Source of the DNA: Myxococcales bacterium
Lineage (GTDB): Bacteria > Myxococcota_A > UBA9160 > UBA4427
Direction of reading: 5' to 3'
NCBI GenBank assembly: GCA_022563535.1
Contig: JADFNE010000026.1
Location: 1 to 57,986 of the forward strand
DNA: 57,986 nucleotides
This document shows, piece by piece, positions 1,332-47,481 of the stretch. Both the position numbers and the translations under genes were made by a program. The stretch's first letter is position 1; each line of letters opens with the position of its first letter. The notes below the pieces were generated by a model. That model was given only the letters and a program-made list of their open reading frames with translations, did no database searches and had not been told where the DNA came from.

Positions 1332-1405
1332 GGCCCCGAGCTCCGGTGTCCCGAGTGGCCCGGATCGCTATTCTTTCGCCTCGAACGTGAGGAGCGAAAG
1401 CGAGC

Positions 1406-2446
1406 ATGACGAGTGACCCGGCGATCAAAGGCCTGCGACCCGACTCGGTAAGCGACTGGCTCGAGCGCAACGTCGACGGGCTTCGGCCGCCCTTCAGGTT
1501 TGAACGCATCATAGGGGGCCACTCCAACCTGACTTACAAGATCAGCGACGCATCCGGTCGTCGCGCCGTATTGCGCAGGCCTCCAACCGGCTCCGTGCTC
1601 GCGACCGCACACGACATGGCGCGCGAATACCGAATCGTCACGGCGATCGGACGCAGTAGCGTGCCGGTTCCGACGACCTACGCCCTGTGCGAAGACGTCG
1701 AAGTCAACGATGCCCCCTTCTACGTGATGGACTATGTCGAAGGGACCGTGTTGAACGATGCACAGACCACCGAGGCACTGCTCGACGAGTCTGCTCGGCG
1801 CAGATTGAGCGAACACACCGCCGAGGTGCTCGCCGATTTGCATGCGATCGACCCCGACACGATCGATCTCGGCGACCTCGCGAAGCGCGAGGACTACATC
1901 GCGCGACAACTCAAGCGCTGGAAGGGGCAGTGGGAGAAGAGCAAGACCCGGGAACTGCCGGAGATGGACGAAGTCTTCGCGGGGCTGTCGTCAAACATTC
2001 CAAAACAATCGGGTTCGGGAATCGTCCACGGGGACTATCGGCTGGGCAACATGCTGGTCAGCGAAAAGGGGCGCATTCTGGCGCTGCTCGATTGGGAACT
2101 CTGCACCCTCGGCGATACCCTCGCCGATGTCGGGTACCTGATGAACAACTGGTTCCAGCCCGACGAGCCGTCGACCGATGGCGCCGCGGCGTTTGGACCG
2201 ACGTCGATCGGCTGCTTTTCGACGCGCGAAGAGTTCGTGGCCCGCTACTCCGAACTGTCCGGGCGCGAAGTGTCGTCGATCAACTACTACCGGGCATTTC
2301 AGTACTGGCGACTCGCCGCGATCGTCGAGGGGGTTCTGTCCCGCTACCTCAAGGGGGTGATGGCGAACGAGGCCGATACGGATGTGTTCCGAAAACAGGT
2401 CGACGGTATGGCGATTTCGGCCCTTGAATTGATCCGCGACATCTAG
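1406..2446 (+). CDS. APH-family phosphotransferase (ACAD10/FadE36-like)
   Basis: Aminoglycoside-phosphotransferase-fold kinase of 346 aa. The catalytic loop reads VHGDYRLGNMLV (Asp base and Asn), and the metal-binding segment is LLDWELCTLGDTLADVG. This subgroup is the one related to the kinase domain of human ACAD10 and often sits near acyl-CoA dehydrogenases. It is thought to phosphorylate hydroxylated acyl substrates rather than antibiotics, so a resistance role should not be assumed. The ATG at 1406 follows a purine-rich GGAGCGAAAG. It stands alone between the kinase gene and a terminator, and no substrate can be read from context. Confidence 0.85.
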   Translation: MTSDPAIKGLRPDSVSDWLERNVDGLRPPFRFERIIGGHSNLTYKISDASGRRAVLRRPPTGSVLATAHDMAREYRIVTAIGRSSVPVPTTYALCEDVEVNDAPFYVMDYVEGTVLNDAQTTEALLDESARRRLSEHTAEVLADLHAIDPDTIDLGDLAKREDYIARQLKRWKGQWEKSKTRELPEMDEVFAGLSSNIPKQSGSGIVHGDYRLGNMLVSEKGRILALLDWELCTLGDTLADVGYLMNNWFQPDEPSTDGAAAFGPTSIGCFSTREEFVARYSELSGREVSSINYYRAFQYWRLAAIVEGVLSRYLKGVMANEADTDVFRKQVDGMAISALELIRDI

Positions 2447-2479
2447 CGAGTCGACGATCGACTAAAAAATCTTCCAGCC

Positions 2480-2516
2480 TCCCCCCCTGTGGGGTTCTCG
2501 TTCCTGGGGGTTTTTA
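2480..2516 (+). terminator. Probable Rho-independent terminator
   Basis: A C-run at 2481-2487 can pair with a G-run at 2506-2510, which is followed at once by TTTTT (2511-2515). It lies 35 bases after the phosphotransferase stop codon. An alternative shorter hairpin (CCCC-TGT-GGGG) uses the same C-run. Confidence 0.55.
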
Positions 2517-2741
2517 TTGCGTGTGGCTCGATGGAAACCTCCCCGATTCGAAGTAGCGAGCTAGAAGTGGTCTACCGAGTTTCAACGATATGAATAGAAG
2601 ACTCTGCCCGCGACGGCCTTGGACTGCACATGACTCTGGTGTTCGACCGTTCGGAAGCTATTATTCCGCGCCACTGAACCAGGACTGGACGGTGTTGTCC
2701 GGGTCACCGGTCTTAGTTTTATCCCCGAATTGAGGTACGTC

Positions 2742-3623
2742 ATGTCGGCTTTGGTAGCCGAAACGGTTCGCAACTACATCGATCTCACCAAGCCGCGTCT
2801 CCTCCCGTTGGTCCTGTTCAGTGGACTTCCGGTGATGGGGATGAGCGCCAGTGGCTGGGCTCCAATTCCTTTGATGTGCTGGATTCTGATCGGAATCAGC
2901 CTGGCTGCCGCCAGTGCCAACACCCTCAACGCCTATCTCGAGATCGACAAAGATTCGCTGATGGAGCGGACCCGCAATCGTCCGTTGCCGGCCGGGCGAA
3001 TTGCCCCGCAGAACGCCCTGGTGTTCGGCATCGTTCTCGCTGTGCTTTCCACGTTCTTCTTGTATTGGGTGGGGGGCGCCATCGCTGCGGGCCTGGGCGT
3101 CGCGAGCATCCTTTTCTACGTTTTCGTCTATACCATCTGGGTAAAACCGCGTTCGTCTTGGAACGTGGTCGTGGGTGGTGCGGCCGGCGCGGTTTCGCCG
3201 CTGATTGCAGACGCAGCGCTCAACGGCACTGTGGGACCTGCAGGACTGAGTCTGTTCGCCCTGGTGTTCTTCTGGCAACCACCCCACGTCTGGGCGATCG
3301 CCCTGTATCGCAAAAGCGACTATCAGGCCGCGGGGATTCCGATGCTTCCCAATGTGGTGGGAGATGGGCCCACACGCTGGTGGATGTTGCTCTCCACCTT
3401 GTTCCTGGTGCCGGTCGCCCTCGCGCCGGTTGCGTTCGGTCTGATTGGGTCGGTTTATCTGGTCCTATCTCTGATCGCGAATGCATGGTTTATCTGGCAC
3501 GCCATTCAGGTAGTTCGCCTAAAGACTCTCGATAGTGCGCGCGCCATGTTTCGCGTTTCACTCGGCTACCTGTTCGCCTTGCTGGGGGCAATGTTGGTTG
3601 ATCTCGCCTTCTTCGGAACTTGA
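2742..3623 (+). CDS. ctaB: Heme O synthase (protoheme IX farnesyltransferase)
   Basis: Integral-membrane UbiA-family prenyltransferase that adds a farnesyl group to heme b to give heme o, the precursor of the heme a used by the oxidase encoded downstream. It has about 293 aa with multiple hydrophobic segments. The first Asp-rich motif lies within NAYLEIDKDSL and is followed by ERTRNRPLPAGR, the CtaB/CyoE signature. The ATG at 2742 is preferred over a TTG at 2730 because GAGG at 2732-2735 is a well-spaced ribosome-binding site. It is first in a run of same-strand oxidase genes. No heme A synthase (CtaA) is seen in the window. Confidence 0.95.
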   Translation: MSALVAETVRNYIDLTKPRLLPLVLFSGLPVMGMSASGWAPIPLMCWILIGISLAAASANTLNAYLEIDKDSLMERTRNRPLPAGRIAPQNALVFGIVLAVLSTFFLYWVGGAIAAGLGVASILFYVFVYTIWVKPRSSWNVVVGGAAGAVSPLIADAALNGTVGPAGLSLFALVFFWQPPHVWAIALYRKSDYQAAGIPMLPNVVGDGPTRWWMLLSTLFLVPVALAPVAFGLIGSVYLVLSLIANAWFIWHAIQVVRLKTLDSARAMFRVSLGYLFALLGAMLVDLAFFGT

Positions 3624-38478: not shown

Positions 38479-39804
38479 TCAGGGCGCGGATGGCAGGTCC
38501 CAGATCGAGGTGCTCACCTCAGCCGGTTCAGGGGCACTCTGGGCCTCGACAGAGGGGCTCGAAGTCTCCTCTGCGATGTCGCTCTCGCCGGTTGGATCCG
38601 GGGTCGCCGATTCGTGATCTGGGCCCAGGCCGCCCAACTCATCGATCTGCCGGCGAATCTCCTGCGCCTCGTCGATGCGGTTCTGGTCCCTCAGGAAGCT
38701 CTCAAACGACTCGAACAGTACCTTTTGATCCGTGGGCTTGGCGGCTTTTAATCCGGCCATCACCTCGGCGAACAGGCGGGAGGCGGATTCGGTCTCGCCG
38801 TCGGCGGCCAGGATCCGGGCTTTGGTATCGAGAACCATGGCGCGGTTGATGCCACCGATCTTCAACTCTTCGAGGTTCTTCAGTGCGAGGTCAACGTTTG
38901 TGAGCGCTTCGTCGAGGCGGTTCGATTCGAGATAGACAAGCGCGACTCCGTTGAGCGCGATGGTCTCAATCACACTCACAGGATTGATCTCGCGCAAGGT
39001 CTCGAGCGCGGCCAGATACAGTTTTTCCGAATCCTCGTATCGCCCGACCTCGAAATACGCCGTGGCTGTGAAGAGTCTGGCCTTCACCAGTTCCGCTGAT
39101 TTCGGTCCCAGTAGATTTTCAGAGAGGGTGAGGCTTTTTTCAGCGTGCTCGACCGCGAGATCGAACTGCTCGATACTGATCTCCGCTTGCGAGAGTCTCT
39201 GGTAGGGCTCGATCAACGTCGACGAATTTGCACCGCTTTTCTGCACTCTCAGATCGAGGGCGCGCTGAAAGGAAACACTGGCTTCTGCGGTCGCGCCCGC
39301 GAGCAGTTGAAGTCCGCCGAGTTCCAGCGCTAGATCGCTGAGGCCCGGATACGAGAACTCAGTTTCGTCTCGAGTTTCGTAGGTGATGATCTGGAGCACT
39401 CGAGTTGCGGCCGCATCATTTTGATCCCGCCGATAACTCGTAGCCAGGCGTTCGAGGTTTTTGAAGCTCACCCGGCGCCGTACATCGCTCGACCGATAGC
39501 GATTCGAGAGCTTGAATGCGGCCAGCAGACTGTGCTCGGCGGCGGCGTGGCGACCCAGGAGCAAATGCTGCCGTCCTTCCTTGACCAGGCGGCTCCACTG
39601 CTGCGGTTCCGCGGTGTCAGTCTCGGCGTCGCTGTAGACGTCTCTCCGGCGGCTCGAATCCGTCGACAGCTCCGAGTCGCCACCATTAGCCGCGTCACCG
39701 GTTCGCATGGAAACCGTCGATCCAGCCAGCGTGCATCCCGAACTCGCCAGGCAGAATGCGGCGAACGCCGAGCCGGTAATCAGTATTTTCAAGTGGCGCT
39801 TCAA
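38479..39804 (-). CDS. TPR-repeat lipoprotein
   Basis: 441 aa. The TTG at 39804 gives a lipoprotein signal (HLKILITGSAFAAFCLASSG followed by C24), with GGAG about nine bases upstream. The mature part has a Ser/Asp-rich stretch, then several TPR units (RQHLLLGRHAAAEHSLLAAF, ASVSFQRALDLRVQKSG, AVEHAEKSLTLSENLLG, SEKLYLAALETLREI, DEALTNVDLALKNLEEL) and an acidic Pro/Ser tail. It probably scaffolds envelope proteins. Its own neighbours do not define a role. The selenoprotein gene lies upstream on the same strand. Confidence 0.82.
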   Translation of the reverse strand: MKRHLKILITGSAFAAFCLASSGCTLAGSTVSMRTGDAANGGDSELSTDSSRRRDVYSDAETDTAEPQQWSRLVKEGRQHLLLGRHAAAEHSLLAAFKLSNRYRSSDVRRRVSFKNLERLATSYRRDQNDAAATRVLQIITYETRDETEFSYPGLSDLALELGGLQLLAGATAEASVSFQRALDLRVQKSGANSSTLIEPYQRLSQAEISIEQFDLAVEHAEKSLTLSENLLGPKSAELVKARLFTATAYFEVGRYEDSEKLYLAALETLREINPVSVIETIALNGVALVYLESNRLDEALTNVDLALKNLEELKIGGINRAMVLDTKARILAADGETESASRLFAEVMAGLKAAKPTDQKVLFESFESFLRDQNRIDEAQEIRRQIDELGGLGPDHESATPDPTGESDIAEETSSPSVEAQSAPEPAEVSTSIWDLPSAP

Positions 39805-39957
39805 AGGGTCTGCTCCATCAGTGGGCCGTGAGCTTAAAACATTTTCAAGCCATCGCTCGGTGCGCCAAAACAAAATCACTGCTGCCCAATGCCTTCATCG
39901 GCAGACCCGGGCATTCTGTACAGGCTTGCAGAGACCGGAATGACTTGAGAGCTTGCT

Positions 39958-40173
39958 TCAAGGCAATTTTTTCAGGATTTCATCGTCGCTGGGGAAACGA
40001 CCCTCAGCGTGCTTCGAAAACACCAGGTTGCCATCGCAACTCACATCGAATATGCCTCGCTCGCCGGCAACTAACGTGCAGTCGTTGCCCGTAGTGGCAA
40101 GTATCGAGGCCGCCAAACTGGTGGCTTGAGGCAAGTAGTTTCACTTGCCGCAGTATTCGATCACGATCTTCAT
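39958..40173 (-). CDS. SelW/SelT-like (Rdx family) selenoprotein with in-frame UGA
   Basis: ATG 40173 to TGA 39958-39960 gives 71 residues if the in-frame TGA at 40141-40143 is read as selenocysteine. The N-terminus is MKIVIEYCGKU, the Cys-x-x-Sec redox motif of the Rdx family. After the UGA the frame continues with family features: NYLPQATSLAASI, LVAGERGIFDVSCDGNLVF, SKHAEGRFPSDDEILKKLP. AGGGA upstream is a good ribosome-binding site. A short stem-loop 16-29 bases after the UGA fits a bacterial SECIS element. Such proteins are small thioredoxin-fold redox proteins of uncertain substrate. Ordinary ORF calling misses this gene because it stops at the UGA. yqeC at 20110 also points to selenium use. 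Confidence 0.88.
40112..40125 (-). promoter_or_regulatory. Candidate bacterial SECIS stem-loop
   Basis: On the minus strand, GCCA-CCAGTT-TGGC forms a 4-bp stem with a 6-base loop containing G, 16 to 29 bases after the UGA codon. That is the window where bacterial SelB-binding hairpins lie. Neighbouring bases may extend the stem, but folding was not computed. Confidence 0.45.
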
Positions 40174-40573
40174 GCATTCCCTTTCAAGCGTTCAGGTGAT
40201 CGATCGCAGCCCATCAGACTCGGTTGCTCCAGCCTGGTGGTCGCGCTCCGAGTCCGGCGGTTGCGTCGCCGCTGCGAAGAAAGTGCGAGCCTAGCATACC
40301 ATTCCCCCGGGGATCAGGACTCGAAGGTGCCGCCGCCCGTCGGCCTCCCGCGATCGGGGGCAAACTTCGCTAACCTACCGACGAAACGAGGCAATTCCGG
40401 CTCGGCCCGCTGTGGCCAGGCGTCGTTTGCGCCCGCACCGCGAGCCGGTCCGACCGATTCCGAGACGGTATTTTGAGAAATACGCCGGAGCAGTCCGGGT
40501 TCGACTCCACACAGTCAGGTGGGTCGTTCGGTTGTTGAGTGAAAATGCCCAGAGGGTCAGCAGGAGGTCGAAG
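40174..40573. other. 400-base stretch without a supported gene
   Basis: Divergent region between the selenoprotein and the aldolase gene. A plus-strand frame runs through it into the aldolase but lacks coding features. A T-loop-like GGTTCGACTCC occurs near 40498 without the rest of a tRNA. It contains AGGAGG (40562-40567), the aldolase ribosome-binding site, and presumably promoters for both genes. Confidence 0.5.
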
Positions 40574-41530
40574 ATGTTTCGAGACGAGATCAAGGTTCTG
40601 GATTGTACGATTCGAGATGGGGGCCTGATCAACAATTACCAGTTCAAGGATGACCTGGTCAAGGCGACTTATCGCGCAGCGTGCGACGCCGCGGTCGACT
40701 TCTTCGAAATTGGCAAGAGACTCTGCGAGAGCGAGGACTTTCCCCGCGACCAGTATGGTGCCTGGAACTTCTGCGACGACGATGACATCAAGCGCGTCGT
40801 CAATTCGTATGAAACCGATTCTCGCCCGCTGCTTGCGGTGATGTTCGACGTCGGAAGAGTCGATGTCGCTGCGCTCAAGCCGCGCGATCAGACGGATCTC
40901 GACATGATTCGGACCGCGTGTTACGTGAAGGACGTCGACAAGGGACTCGAACTCGTCAAACGTTGCAAAGATCTGGGTTACCTGACCACGCTCAACATCA
41001 TGGCGCCGTCGGTGGCCATTGAAACGGAGTTGATCGAAGGGCTGCAAGCGGTAAACGAATGCGACGAGACCGACTATTTGTACCTGGTCGATAGCTACGG
41101 TGCTTTCTATTCCGAGCAGGTCGCGCACTACATCGATCTCTACCGCACACACGCGCCGAGCAAAGAACTCGGGTTCCACGCCCACAACAATCAGCAACTC
41201 GCCTTCGCGAACACCCAGGAGGCAATCATCCGCGGCGTCAATTTGCTGGATGCGACGGTCAACGGGATTGGGCGCGGGGCAGGGAACTGCAACATCGAAC
41301 TGCTGTTGAACTTTCTCCAGAATCCAAAGTTCAAGGTCGAGCCCATCTACGAGGTCATTCAGGAGCACTTTGTGCCGCTGCGCAACGAGATCGAGTGGGG
41401 CTACAACGACATCTATGGCATCAGCGGTTGCCTGAACCAGCATCCGCGCGCGGCGATGCGTCAGCGGGCTGACAAAGCATTGCGGGACAACTGCCACGAC
41501 TTCTATCGAGAGTGCCGAAATCTCGACTGA
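40574..41530 (+). CDS. DRE-TIM-type aldolase/lyase (HMG-CoA lyase/HOA aldolase superfamily)
   Basis: 318 aa TIM-barrel enzyme. It begins IKVLDCTIRDGGLINNYQF, a variant of the superfamily's D-x-T-x-R-D-G metal-site motif. Later metal-binding His residues are in LGFHAHNNQQLAFANT, and VNGIGRGAGNCNIELLL matches the Gly-rich segment. The family includes 4-hydroxy-2-oxovalerate aldolase, HMG-CoA lyase and isopropylmalate synthase. This branch (aldolase catalytic domain protein) has no firm substrate and may serve cell-surface or secondary biosynthesis. ATG 40574 has AGGAGG at 40562-40567. It is convergent with the acyl-CoA dehydrogenase gene. Confidence 0.85.
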   Translation: MFRDEIKVLDCTIRDGGLINNYQFKDDLVKATYRAACDAAVDFFEIGKRLCESEDFPRDQYGAWNFCDDDDIKRVVNSYETDSRPLLAVMFDVGRVDVAALKPRDQTDLDMIRTACYVKDVDKGLELVKRCKDLGYLTTLNIMAPSVAIETELIEGLQAVNECDETDYLYLVDSYGAFYSEQVAHYIDLYRTHAPSKELGFHAHNNQQLAFANTQEAIIRGVNLLDATVNGIGRGAGNCNIELLLNFLQNPKFKVEPIYEVIQEHFVPLRNEIEWGYNDIYGISGCLNQHPRAAMRQRADKALRDNCHDFYRECRNLD

Positions 41531-43509: not shown

Positions 43510-46500
43510 CTAGGATCTACGCCGGGGCTTCCTGGTTGTGCGCGATTTCTTCCGCGCAGACGATTTCTTCCTTGCTACGGATCGCGTGGAGCGCTTCGAT
43601 TTTGCAGGGCGACGATTTTTCTTGCGCGGCAGCCCCTCTGCCGCGATGCGCACATTCGCGATCTCCGCAGCACCGGCTCGTCCACCGGATGGCGTGATGA
43701 CTGGACGTTGAAACTCGATCAGTCGGCCTTCGCTTTCGAAGCTCTCTTCTTCGATGTGGATGTAGCCCGCGCGGTGAAGCGCCGCGAGCAGGACCTCGAA
43801 GAGCCCCCGGTCGTAGTCTTGTCCGAACAGTTCGTTGAATAGTCTTCCGCTGCTCGGGGCGCTCTCGCGATTCAGGGATTTGAGGATGCGCTCCATTGCG
43901 CTCTGCTGCGCCGGGGTTGCTTCACCGTAGTCTGCGACCAGGGTGGCTGCGGGTGCGCAGAAGTCGCAGTGCCCACAAGAGTCTTCGGAATCGGCCTGGT
44001 CGCCAAAATGACGGACGAGTCTCAGCATCCGGCAGCCGCGGCTGTCTGCGAATCGCGCGATTTCGTCGAGTTGTGCTTTGCGATGCTCGAGCTGGGCGCG
44101 GTAGGGCTCGCGCCAGCGATCGTGTCCTCGGGTCGTCGCTTCTCCGGGACCCGCCACTGCGCCGCCGTGAATCCGGAGCTTTTCGAGCGCCCGTTCAAAT
44201 TCCTCAGGGTCCAGCTTGAGCGATTGCTGTAGCCGGGTCTTGTCGATCGGCTGATCTCCGAGCGCTGCGAAGATCTTGGCCAGGACCTTCGTGTCGGGAT
44301 AATCGCGGTTCAGGAACCATTCGTGGGTGCGGCGGTCGATATAGCCGTGCAGGAGAAATGCGCGCGAGGGCAGACCGTCGCGCCCCGCGCGACCGATTTC
44401 TTGATAGTAGCTCTCGACACTGCCGGGCAGGGCGAGATGGATCACGCTGCGAACATCGGGTTTGTCGATTCCCATGCCGAAGGCCACCGTCGCAACGACG
44501 ACCTCGAGGGATCCGGCCAGGAAGGCGGCGTGAACCTTGTCTCTTCGCTCGGGATCCATGCCGGCGTGATAGGCCGCGGTGGGATAGTCCTCGCCGAGTT
44601 CGTCGGCGAGGGCTTCTGCCTTCTTTCGCGTCGGGGCATAGACGATCGCGGGTCGACGGTCGCTCGGGCTGAGCAGCCGCGCAGCGGTGTCGTTGCGCAG
44701 GGAGGGTTTGAGTTCGACCACCTCGATTGCAATGTTGTCCCGGCGAAACCCGTGGATGAAGTGTTGTGCGCCCGGGACCGCCAGTTGCTCGACGATATCG
44801 TGCTGAACCCGCATGGTCGCGGTCGCGGTCAGTGCGACGATGGGAGCCGGTCGCAACAAGGGCAGGCGCTCCTTCAACATTCGGTAGTCGGGTCTGAAGT
44901 CATGGCCCCATTGGGAAATGCAGTGGGCCTCGTCGATCGCGATCAACGCGGGTTTGCGGCGTGCGAGCATCTCGGGGAATCCCGGAACGCTCAATCGTTC
45001 GGGAGCGATGAACAAGAAGTCGAGTCGCCCGGCCAGATAATCGAAACAAACCTGGCGCGAATCTTCGCGGCTGCGCCCCGAATGAATGCGCTCGGCGATG
45101 AACCCGCGCTGTTTCAACGCAATGACTTGATCCTCCATCAATGCGATCAAGGGGCTGACGACCAGCGTGGTTCCCGCCCGGGCGATGCCCGGAAGCTGAT
45201 AGCAGAGGGACTTGCCGGCCCCGGTGGGCATCACGAGCAAGACATCGCTTCCCTCGGTGAGGGTGCGACACACCTCTTCTTGATGCGGCCGGAATCGTTC
45301 GAAGCCAAAACGATCGCGCAGCAGCCCATGCAAGCGGTTCGAGGGAGTCGGAACCTTGGGTGGGGCATTGGCCGATGTGTCTTGGAGTGTTGGTGCCGCG
45401 GGGGGAGCGCTACGGGCTGCCGCACCGGATGGTTTCGCGCGGGAGGGTTGCGTCCGAGCTTTGGCGCGGGGTGGTGCCCCTGCGGTCGATCTGGCCTTCG
45501 CAGCGTCGTCGTGTTTGACACTCGCCACGACGTCGCGCACGTACTGTTCGATTTCGGAGATAAATCGTTCGAGGCTGACGCTGCCGTCTTGAATCTGTTG
45601 GAGCTTCGCCTCCCAGTGGCCGGTCATCGCAGGGCTCTTGCTGTGGGGATGGACCAGTCCAATCAGGCGAATGCCCTTGTCGCTCGCCAGCAATGTCTTC
45701 TTCTCACGCTTGAGATACGCCCGGGTGATCAGGATCTCGATGATTCCGGCCCGGGTTGCGGGTGTTCCGAGCCCACACTCGCGCATGGCTTCCGACAGAT
45801 CTTTGTCATCCAGGGTTTTGCCGGCAGTTTCCATCGCGGTCAGCAGCGTTGCTTCCGTGAAGCGACGGGGCGGCCGGGTTGCCTTGTCGTCGACATGAAC
45901 CTCGAGCATCTCAACTGGCAGATTCGGCCGAAGTTGTGGGGGGAGTTCCGGGTCACGGTTGGCAAGCGAGGCGGCTGCGGCGCTTCTCGGCTTGCGAACT
46001 TCGGTCTTGCGCGGTGCGCTCGGGAGGGGTGGGTCGAGCACCCGCCAACCGACCTGGTCCAGCTTGGTTCCGGTGCTGCGATACAGATCCACGTCCGCCG
46101 CTACGGATTCATCGTTCTCCGATTGTGTGATCGCGGTGATGACCGTGGTTGTGGAATAGAGATGATCTTCATGCCAGGCGGCGAGCAACCGACGACACAC
46201 GAGATCGTAGATACGCTGCTCGTCGCGACCGAGGCGACTGGACCCACGCGCAGTGTCCGTTGGGATCAGAGCGTGGTGATCGCGAACCTTCGCGTCGTCG
46301 ACGAACCTCGCACCCAGTGGGCGGCTGCCGCAGCCCTCCGCGAGGAGTTCGGTGTAACCCGGGGAGATGGCTGCGACGATCCGGGGAAGCGTTTTGGCGT
46401 CATCTCGTGTGAGCACTCGGCTGTCGGTTCGCGGGTAGCTCAGCAGCTTCTTCTCATAGAGCGCCTGTGCGAGATCCAGGGTCTTCTTGGCGGAGAAACC

Positions 46501-47481
46501 GTAGAGTCGATTTGCGTGGCGCTGTAGCTCAGTCAGGTCATAGAACAACGGAGGGGGTAACCGACGTTGACGTCCGCTGACCGAACGAACCTGTGCAGTG
46601 CCTGCGCGCGCGCGATCGGCAATGCGCTGGGCTTCGCTCCCGTCGACCGGCAGGCGACACCCCCGCTGGCTCGAGTCCTGCTCCGGGGGCTTGCTCTCGT
46701 GATCGGCTGCAGTTGCAGGGGCTGGCGCCAGGTCATGGGTCTCCGGCCGGATGTAGACGCCCTCGTACGAGGTCGACGAGGAGACGCCCTGATCCGCATT
46801 CTCCGTCGGCCGAAAGACCGCGCGCACTTCCTTGTAGTCTTCGGAAACGAATCGGCGGATCGCCAGTTCGCGGTCCACCACCATGGCCAGGGTGGGTGTC
46901 TGGACGCGACCGACCGACAGCATCTCTCGCGGCCCGCCCTGGCGAAGCGTGTAGGCCCGCGTGAGATTCATCCCTACCAACCAATCGGCGCGGCTTCTTC
47001 CCCGGGCCGCGTCGGCCAGGCCGTCAAACTCCTGGGCCGGGCGCAGGTCGGCAAAGCCCCGGCGAATGGCGTCGTCGGTCAGTGACGAGATCCAGAGCCT
47101 GCGCACGGGTTTGGTTGCGCCCGCCGCTTCGTAGATAAAACGAAAGATCAGCTCACCTTCGCGACCGGCGTCAGTGGCACACACGACTTCGTCGATGTCT
47201 CGGTCACACAGGATTTGCTTGATGATTTCGAACTGGTGCCGGGTTTTTTCGTAGACCCGCAGAGGCCAGTGCTTGGGAATCATCGGCAGGCTGGCGAGAC
47301 TCCATCGCTTCCATTGGGCATCGATCTCATGAGGTTGCGCCGGAGAGGCCAGATGGCCGATCGCCCAGGTGACCACGTAGCCATTGCCCTCGAGGGCCCC
47401 GTCGCGCCGATGGGTCGCGCCCAGAACCTTGGCGATATCCCGGGCCACTGATGGCTTCTCGGCCAGCACTGCAGTTGTCAT
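43510..47481 (-). CDS. Topoisomerase III - RecQ helicase fusion
   Basis: 1323 aa. Residues 1 to about 655 are a type IA topoisomerase III: Toprim motif (TAVLAEKPSVARDIAKVLG, then VVCATDAGREGELIFRFIYE), LSVGRVQTPTLAMVVDREL, and catalytic Tyr349 in LLSYPRTDSRVL. A Pro/Ala/Arg-rich linker (about 656-715) leads to a complete RecQ: motif 0 FERFRPHQEEV, Walker A MPTGAGKSLCYQLPG (about 751-765), DEAHCISQWGHDFRPDY, YYQEIGRAGRDG and the zinc-binding CRMLRLVRHFGD..CGHCDFC. The tail is Lys/Arg-rich (about 40 residues). The pair corresponds to the BLM-TOP3 dissolvase, which resolves double Holliday junctions and decatenates DNA. It is divergent from murA. Confidence 0.95.
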   Translation of the reverse strand: MTTAVLAEKPSVARDIAKVLGATHRRDGALEGNGYVVTWAIGHLASPAQPHEIDAQWKRWSLASLPMIPKHWPLRVYEKTRHQFEIIKQILCDRDIDEVVCATDAGREGELIFRFIYEAAGATKPVRRLWISSLTDDAIRRGFADLRPAQEFDGLADAARGRSRADWLVGMNLTRAYTLRQGGPREMLSVGRVQTPTLAMVVDRELAIRRFVSEDYKEVRAVFRPTENADQGVSSSTSYEGVYIRPETHDLAPAPATAADHESKPPEQDSSQRGCRLPVDGSEAQRIADRARAGTAQVRSVSGRQRRLPPPLFYDLTELQRHANRLYGFSAKKTLDLAQALYEKKLLSYPRTDSRVLTRDDAKTLPRIVAAISPGYTELLAEGCGSRPLGARFVDDAKVRDHHALIPTDTARGSSRLGRDEQRIYDLVCRRLLAAWHEDHLYSTTTVITAITQSENDESVAADVDLYRSTGTKLDQVGWRVLDPPLPSAPRKTEVRKPRSAAAASLANRDPELPPQLRPNLPVEMLEVHVDDKATRPPRRFTEATLLTAMETAGKTLDDKDLSEAMRECGLGTPATRAGIIEILITRAYLKREKKTLLASDKGIRLIGLVHPHSKSPAMTGHWEAKLQQIQDGSVSLERFISEIEQYVRDVVASVKHDDAAKARSTAGAPPRAKARTQPSRAKPSGAAARSAPPAAPTLQDTSANAPPKVPTPSNRLHGLLRDRFGFERFRPHQEEVCRTLTEGSDVLLVMPTGAGKSLCYQLPGIARAGTTLVVSPLIALMEDQVIALKQRGFIAERIHSGRSREDSRQVCFDYLAGRLDFLFIAPERLSVPGFPEMLARRKPALIAIDEAHCISQWGHDFRPDYRMLKERLPLLRPAPIVALTATATMRVQHDIVEQLAVPGAQHFIHGFRRDNIAIEVVELKPSLRNDTAARLLSPSDRRPAIVYAPTRKKAEALADELGEDYPTAAYHAGMDPERRDKVHAAFLAGSLEVVVATVAFGMGIDKPDVRSVIHLALPGSVESYYQEIGRAGRDGLPSRAFLLHGYIDRRTHEWFLNRDYPDTKVLAKIFAALGDQPIDKTRLQQSLKLDPEEFERALEKLRIHGGAVAGPGEATTRGHDRWREPYRAQLEHRKAQLDEIARFADSRGCRMLRLVRHFGDQADSEDSCGHCDFCAPAATLVADYGEATPAQQSAMERILKSLNRESAPSSGRLFNELFGQDYDRGLFEVLLAALHRAGYIHIEEESFESEGRLIEFQRPVITPSGGRAGAAEIANVRIAAEGLPRKKNRRPAKSKRSTRSVARKKSSARKKSRTTRKPRRRS

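Follow-up and report, generated by a model that had tools for sequence, protein, structure and literature searches.

The stretch of DNA analysed here, hereafter the window, comprises 57,986 nucleotides of contig JADFNE010000026.1 from a Myxococcales bacterium (assembly GCA_022563535.1). Between a TPR lipoprotein-like gene and a divergently transcribed HMGL-like gene lies a short minus-strand gene interrupted by an in-frame TGA, with the following features at and around it:

38479..39879, minus strand: TPR lipoprotein-like gene, downstream neighbour, outside the proposed mechanism (Pfam TPR; synteny within the genus)
39958..40173, minus strand: SelW-like (Rdx) selenoprotein gene, 71 aa, predicted Sec at residue 11 (CGKU) (translation, Pfam Rdx, NCBIfam CXXU_selWTH)
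40109..40125, minus strand: predicted bSECIS hairpin GCC-A-CCA-GUU-UGG-C-GGC, apical loop GUU at 40116-40118, 22 nt after the UGA (predicted -7.6 kcal/mol; conserved in 90 homologues; fit to the bSECIS model)
40141..40143, minus strand: predicted Sec UGA codon (same aligned TGA in the SelW-like homologues of the subfamily; full Sec machinery in the genome)
40178..40184, minus strand: Shine-Dalgarno-like AAAGGGA, moderate, 4 nt 5' of the ATG (direct sequence reading)
40412..41530, plus strand: HMGL-like gene, divergent neighbour, outside the proposed mechanism (Pfam HMGL-like; synteny within the genus)

Reading of both strands of 39958-40173 gives, on the minus strand, MKIVIEYCGK-TGA-NYLPQATSLAASILATTGNDCTLVAGERGIFDVSCDGNLVFSKHAEGRFPSDDEILKKLP-TGA, with the ATG at 40173-40171, the candidate Sec TGA at 40143-40141 and the terminal TGA at 39960-39958; the same frame of the plus strand contains a stop, and no family resemblance was seen there. 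The coding span before the terminal TGA (40173-39961) amounts to 71 residues, of which residues 8-11 form a C-G-K-TGA version of the CxxU motif that is kept in the homologues, and 60 residues separate the two TGA codons. Many homologues terminate with TAG or TAA close to the end point of this gene, and since many of them stop with TAG at exactly Sec codon +60, the terminal TGA here can be regarded as an ordinary stop and the C-terminus as correctly placed. The initial annotation had proposed a hidden Rdx/SelW-like gene whose TGA, when read through, yields a 71-residue product with Cys-Gly-Lys-Sec and family sequence for 60 residues beyond it; these claims are borne out by the translation and the profile matches given below, with the addition of the minus strand, which it had left unstated. 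Its claim of a good ribosome-binding site stands only in part, in that a site is present and AAAGGGA is moderate rather than good.

If the TGA is translated as a residue, the product matches Pfam Rdx (PF10262) with 71.1 bits (E 8.8e-20; cut-off 22.6) over profile positions 1-71 of 74 and residues 2-69 of the product, and NCBIfam CXXU_selWTH (TIGR02174) with 55.1 bits against a cut-off of 34.2. Further, the solved Rdx structures 2oka, 2fa8 and 2obk align across the UGA position. Family searching across the entire draft assembly (147 contigs, 4.63 Mb, 97.9% complete) recovered this one Rdx gene only, with its one internal TGA.

Across a set of 98 genomes, consisting of this genome and its relatives, 80 have an Rdx gene and 71 have one whose match includes a TGA, and this TGA lies at the same codon in every TGA-bearing copy that was read out. 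The distribution of these genes follows that of selA, which is found in 87 of the 98: TGA-containing versions occur in 69 of the 87 selA-bearing genomes as against 2 of the 11 without it (Fisher p 1.1e-4, with phylogeny ignored). The two genomes in which a TGA-Rdx is present and selA was not found (G063 and G097) are probably represented by incomplete or contaminated assemblies. A separate genome collection furnished 45 relatives with up to 60% identity (71% in the case of one fragment) from Myxococcota, Planctomycetota, Lambdaproteobacteria/SAR324, Marinimicrobia, Zixiibacteriota and others, and all those whose codon was read carry TGA. In keeping with the homologue alignment proposed in the initial annotation, the TGA codon is thus retained with conserved sequence after it, rather than being an ordinary stop followed by non-conserved sequence. 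A spurious reading frame was also considered as a candidate and rejected on the basis of this conservation.

This distribution bears directly on the possibility that the gene is a dead pseudogene or a misread one, in which a cysteine codon has been turned into TGA by mutation or assembly error. A single base separates TGA from TGC or TGT and the assembly is still split into many contigs, both of which would favour such an origin; however, the TGA recurs in the 71 genomes noted above and also in dozens of bacteria of several phyla whose genomes were assembled independently, and the sequence that follows it is intact. On account of this conservation in independent assemblies a pseudogene or sequencing error is excluded, and we regard it as highly improbable.

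The initial annotation had also placed a stem-loop at the right distance from the UGA, and had called for a bSECIS prediction. The bSECIS model, as summarised in a published account, specifies an apical loop of 3-9 nt, an upper stem of 4-16 bp and a G in the first two loop positions, at 16-37 nt from the UGA and with an MFE of at most -7.5 kcal/mol (PMC13188914). The hairpin in the window fits each of these constraints, with its -7.6 kcal/mol only narrowly inside the energy limit. Searches of the window for Rfam families and tRNAs returned none. The isolated 60-nt stretch 3' of the UGA does not fold with unusual stability (z = -0.88) and its MFE favours a slightly different fold; the folding energy of this stretch being uninformative, the case for a SECIS is built on the comparative evidence together with the model fit.

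For the comparison, the sequences of 90 distinct TGA homologues were taken from the UGA onward and set against one another gap-free over the hairpin. Most share the hairpin GGCC-N-CCA-GUY-UGG-N-GGCC with its loop 22 nt past the UGA; the version in the window forms 6 of the 8 pairs, having one A.C mismatch and lacking the outer G-C pair seen in most homologues. On average 6.94 of the 8 pairs are formed across the homologues, a value reached by 0 of 2000 codon-preserving permutations (mean 6.49, sd 0.03), in which codons were exchanged only among sequences sharing the amino acid at a site and relatedness was ignored; random synonymous codons give a mean of 5.16 pairs. Additionally, the third bases of two GCN alanine codons, at positions 21 and 33 from the U of the UGA, covary (Fisher 5.8e-14, relatedness ignored): among 77 sequences they form C-G in 54, G-C in 10, U-A in 8, U-G in 3 and G-U in 1, with a single C-C mismatch. 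Parsimony on a weakly supported protein tree implies about 13 changes of pair state at these codons, and a strict phylogenetic independent-pairs test on the 70-residue tree had just 2 usable pairs. As the covariation falls at four-fold degenerate sites, protein conservation does not explain the pairing. In the Cys homologues the hairpin is not formed at the equivalent place, where 1-5 of the 8 pairs are present. These observations support the predicted hairpin as a real, conserved SECIS.

A search of the genome for the Sec decoding machinery, as the initial annotation had suggested, recovered the complete set of selA, selB, selC and selD. These comprise a single-copy selA (540 bits), a selB of 684 aa (283 bits) with EF-Tu domains and the two winged-helix domains SelB-wing_2 and SelB-wing_3, a tRNA-Sec with anticodon TCA (detected by ARAGORN, and with 73 bits by Rfam) and a selD (336 bits). 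The winged-helix domains constitute the SECIS-binding part of SelB in E. coli. The selD gene (L019, minus strand, within 1393-3408) itself has an in-frame TGA in a GGU motif, and selenophosphate synthetase is probably a selenoprotein in this organism. Further, a single TGA is seen in 5 of the 11 AhpC-TSA (peroxiredoxin-type) matches and in 2 of the 4 AhpD-type (CMD) matches of the genome. Two such cases were translated, namely a candidate selenoprotein peroxiredoxin with the motif FTGGU (L160:1501-1938, minus strand) and a candidate AhpD-like selenoprotein with the motif CLFU (L162:1444-1746, plus strand), and in both the TGA lies within the redox motif. The TGA codons in the SelD, AhpC-TSA and CMD matches suggest that the organism is very probably a selenium user making several selenoproteins. 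A search of the genome for a TGA-containing FdhA-type molybdopterin oxidoreductase was negative, none of the five PF00384 matches having an internal stop, and the sole GRDB (PF07355) match, with partial profile coverage, is likewise free of one. The assertion in the initial annotation that the organism decodes UGA as selenocysteine is supported as an interpretation by this machinery and the homologues, although the window sequence by itself did not show it. Neither of the two observations which it had named as speaking against its reading, a genome without Sec machinery or homologues with non-conserved sequence past the stop, was made.

The machinery and the hairpin also weigh on the alternative that a short peptide ends at the UGA and a second, independent start lies 3' of it, with no selenocysteine being inserted. 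UGA does serve as an ordinary stop in this genome, for instance as the terminal codon of this very gene, as such a reading would require. Yet the Rdx domain extends across the UGA, there is no in-frame ORF of at least 60 aa starting past it, and both the Sec machinery and a covarying SECIS are present, rendering this alternative very unlikely. A genome-wide reassignment of UGA (e.g., to Trp or Gly) or non-specific read-through would also have the codon read as sense, but is vanishingly improbable given that 92% of the window is taken up by ordinary stop-to-stop frames free of internal TGA, that the TGA codons of SelD, Prx and AhpD occupy catalytic Cys/Sec positions, and that the UCA-anticodon tRNA found is tRNA-Sec.

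Hence, the locus almost certainly encodes a true bacterial selenoprotein of the SelW-like (Rdx) family, with selenocysteine inserted at the UGA of codon 11 by way of the downstream hairpin. From the gene and its family, the decoding machinery, the conservation of the UGA and the covariation in the hairpin, we infer the following course of Sec insertion in this organism. On arrival of the ribosome at the UGA of codon 11, SelB carrying Sec-tRNA(Sec) would bind the mRNA hairpin just 3' of it and insert selenocysteine, and translation would end at a second UGA, codon 72, acting as the true stop. The protein so produced would have 71 residues, a thioredoxin fold and the redox motif CGKU. As judged from its sequence, the most likely role of the product is that of a small thiol/selenol oxidoreductase, with any cellular function past the CxxU redox role being presumptive.

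The gene order methyltransferase - TPR - SelW - HMGL-like - acyl-CoA dehydrogenase is held in three other species of the genus, whose SelW proteins are 53-57% identical to the one studied here. Two genomes of the family that belong to other genera showed none of these neighbours within 10 kb, and the gene context therefore gives no pointer to a partner. A window-wide scan for intergenic TGA-readthrough frames with redox-like motifs yielded eight frames besides SelW, none of them resembling a known redox family. Elsewhere in the window, a minus-strand ORF of 1323 aa (43510-47481) appears by eye to combine a type IA topoisomerase III-like part with a RecQ-type helicase.

Bacterial SelW-like selenoproteins have been described since 2005 at the latest. 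They were the most abundant selenoprotein family in the Sargasso Sea and GOS surveys (PMC1088965, PMC2398784), an interaction with glutathione being noted for them in the Sargasso Sea study (PMC1088965), and are also known from Geobacter, Desulfotalea and others (PMC1794560). The gene described here shares with these proteins (PF10262; TIGR02174) the N-terminal CxxU, the length of about 70-80 aa (71 aa here), the Rdx profile, the in-frame UGA and the bSECIS directly 3' of it, and differs from them only in sequence detail. With Campylobacter jejuni SelW (CJnc60; NF041051) it has in common the family, the Sec position and having been missed by annotation, just as SelW genes were missed completely in the annotation of Epsilonproteobacteria (PMC4607533). 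In C. jejuni, full-length translation through the UGA has been established experimentally by Ribo-seq, termination-site profiling and proteomics peptides (PMC11955535). The score of the product described here against NF041051 (SelTWH_Campy), 82.6 bits, is below the equivalog cut-off of 88, and the product is accordingly not filed as a SelTWH_Campy equivalog. The CxxC Rdx proteins of relatives form a separate, longer subfamily, which together with 2oka, 2fa8 and 2obk shares the Rdx profile and a redox motif at the same place. In contrast to the product described here, these have Cys for Sec, extend further at the C-terminus, carry WLLRA-type sequence where NYLPQ follows the motif here, and lack a SECIS-like hairpin.

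The gene is thus an unremarkable representative of a selenoprotein family whose frequent occurrence in bacteria was already established, and leaves the understanding of Sec decoding unchanged. With the standard code only a 10-codon ORF is seen and the gene would go unrecorded, a frequent fate of SelW genes; this annotation gap is corrected here. Finally, it is an evenly balanced proposition that Sec-SelW is a near-core gene of the myxobacterium-related class which, with its compact covarying SECIS also present in Planctomycetota, SAR324/Lambdaproteobacteria and other phyla, may be old or widely transferred; if true, this would modestly widen the known distribution of the family while invoking no new mechanism.
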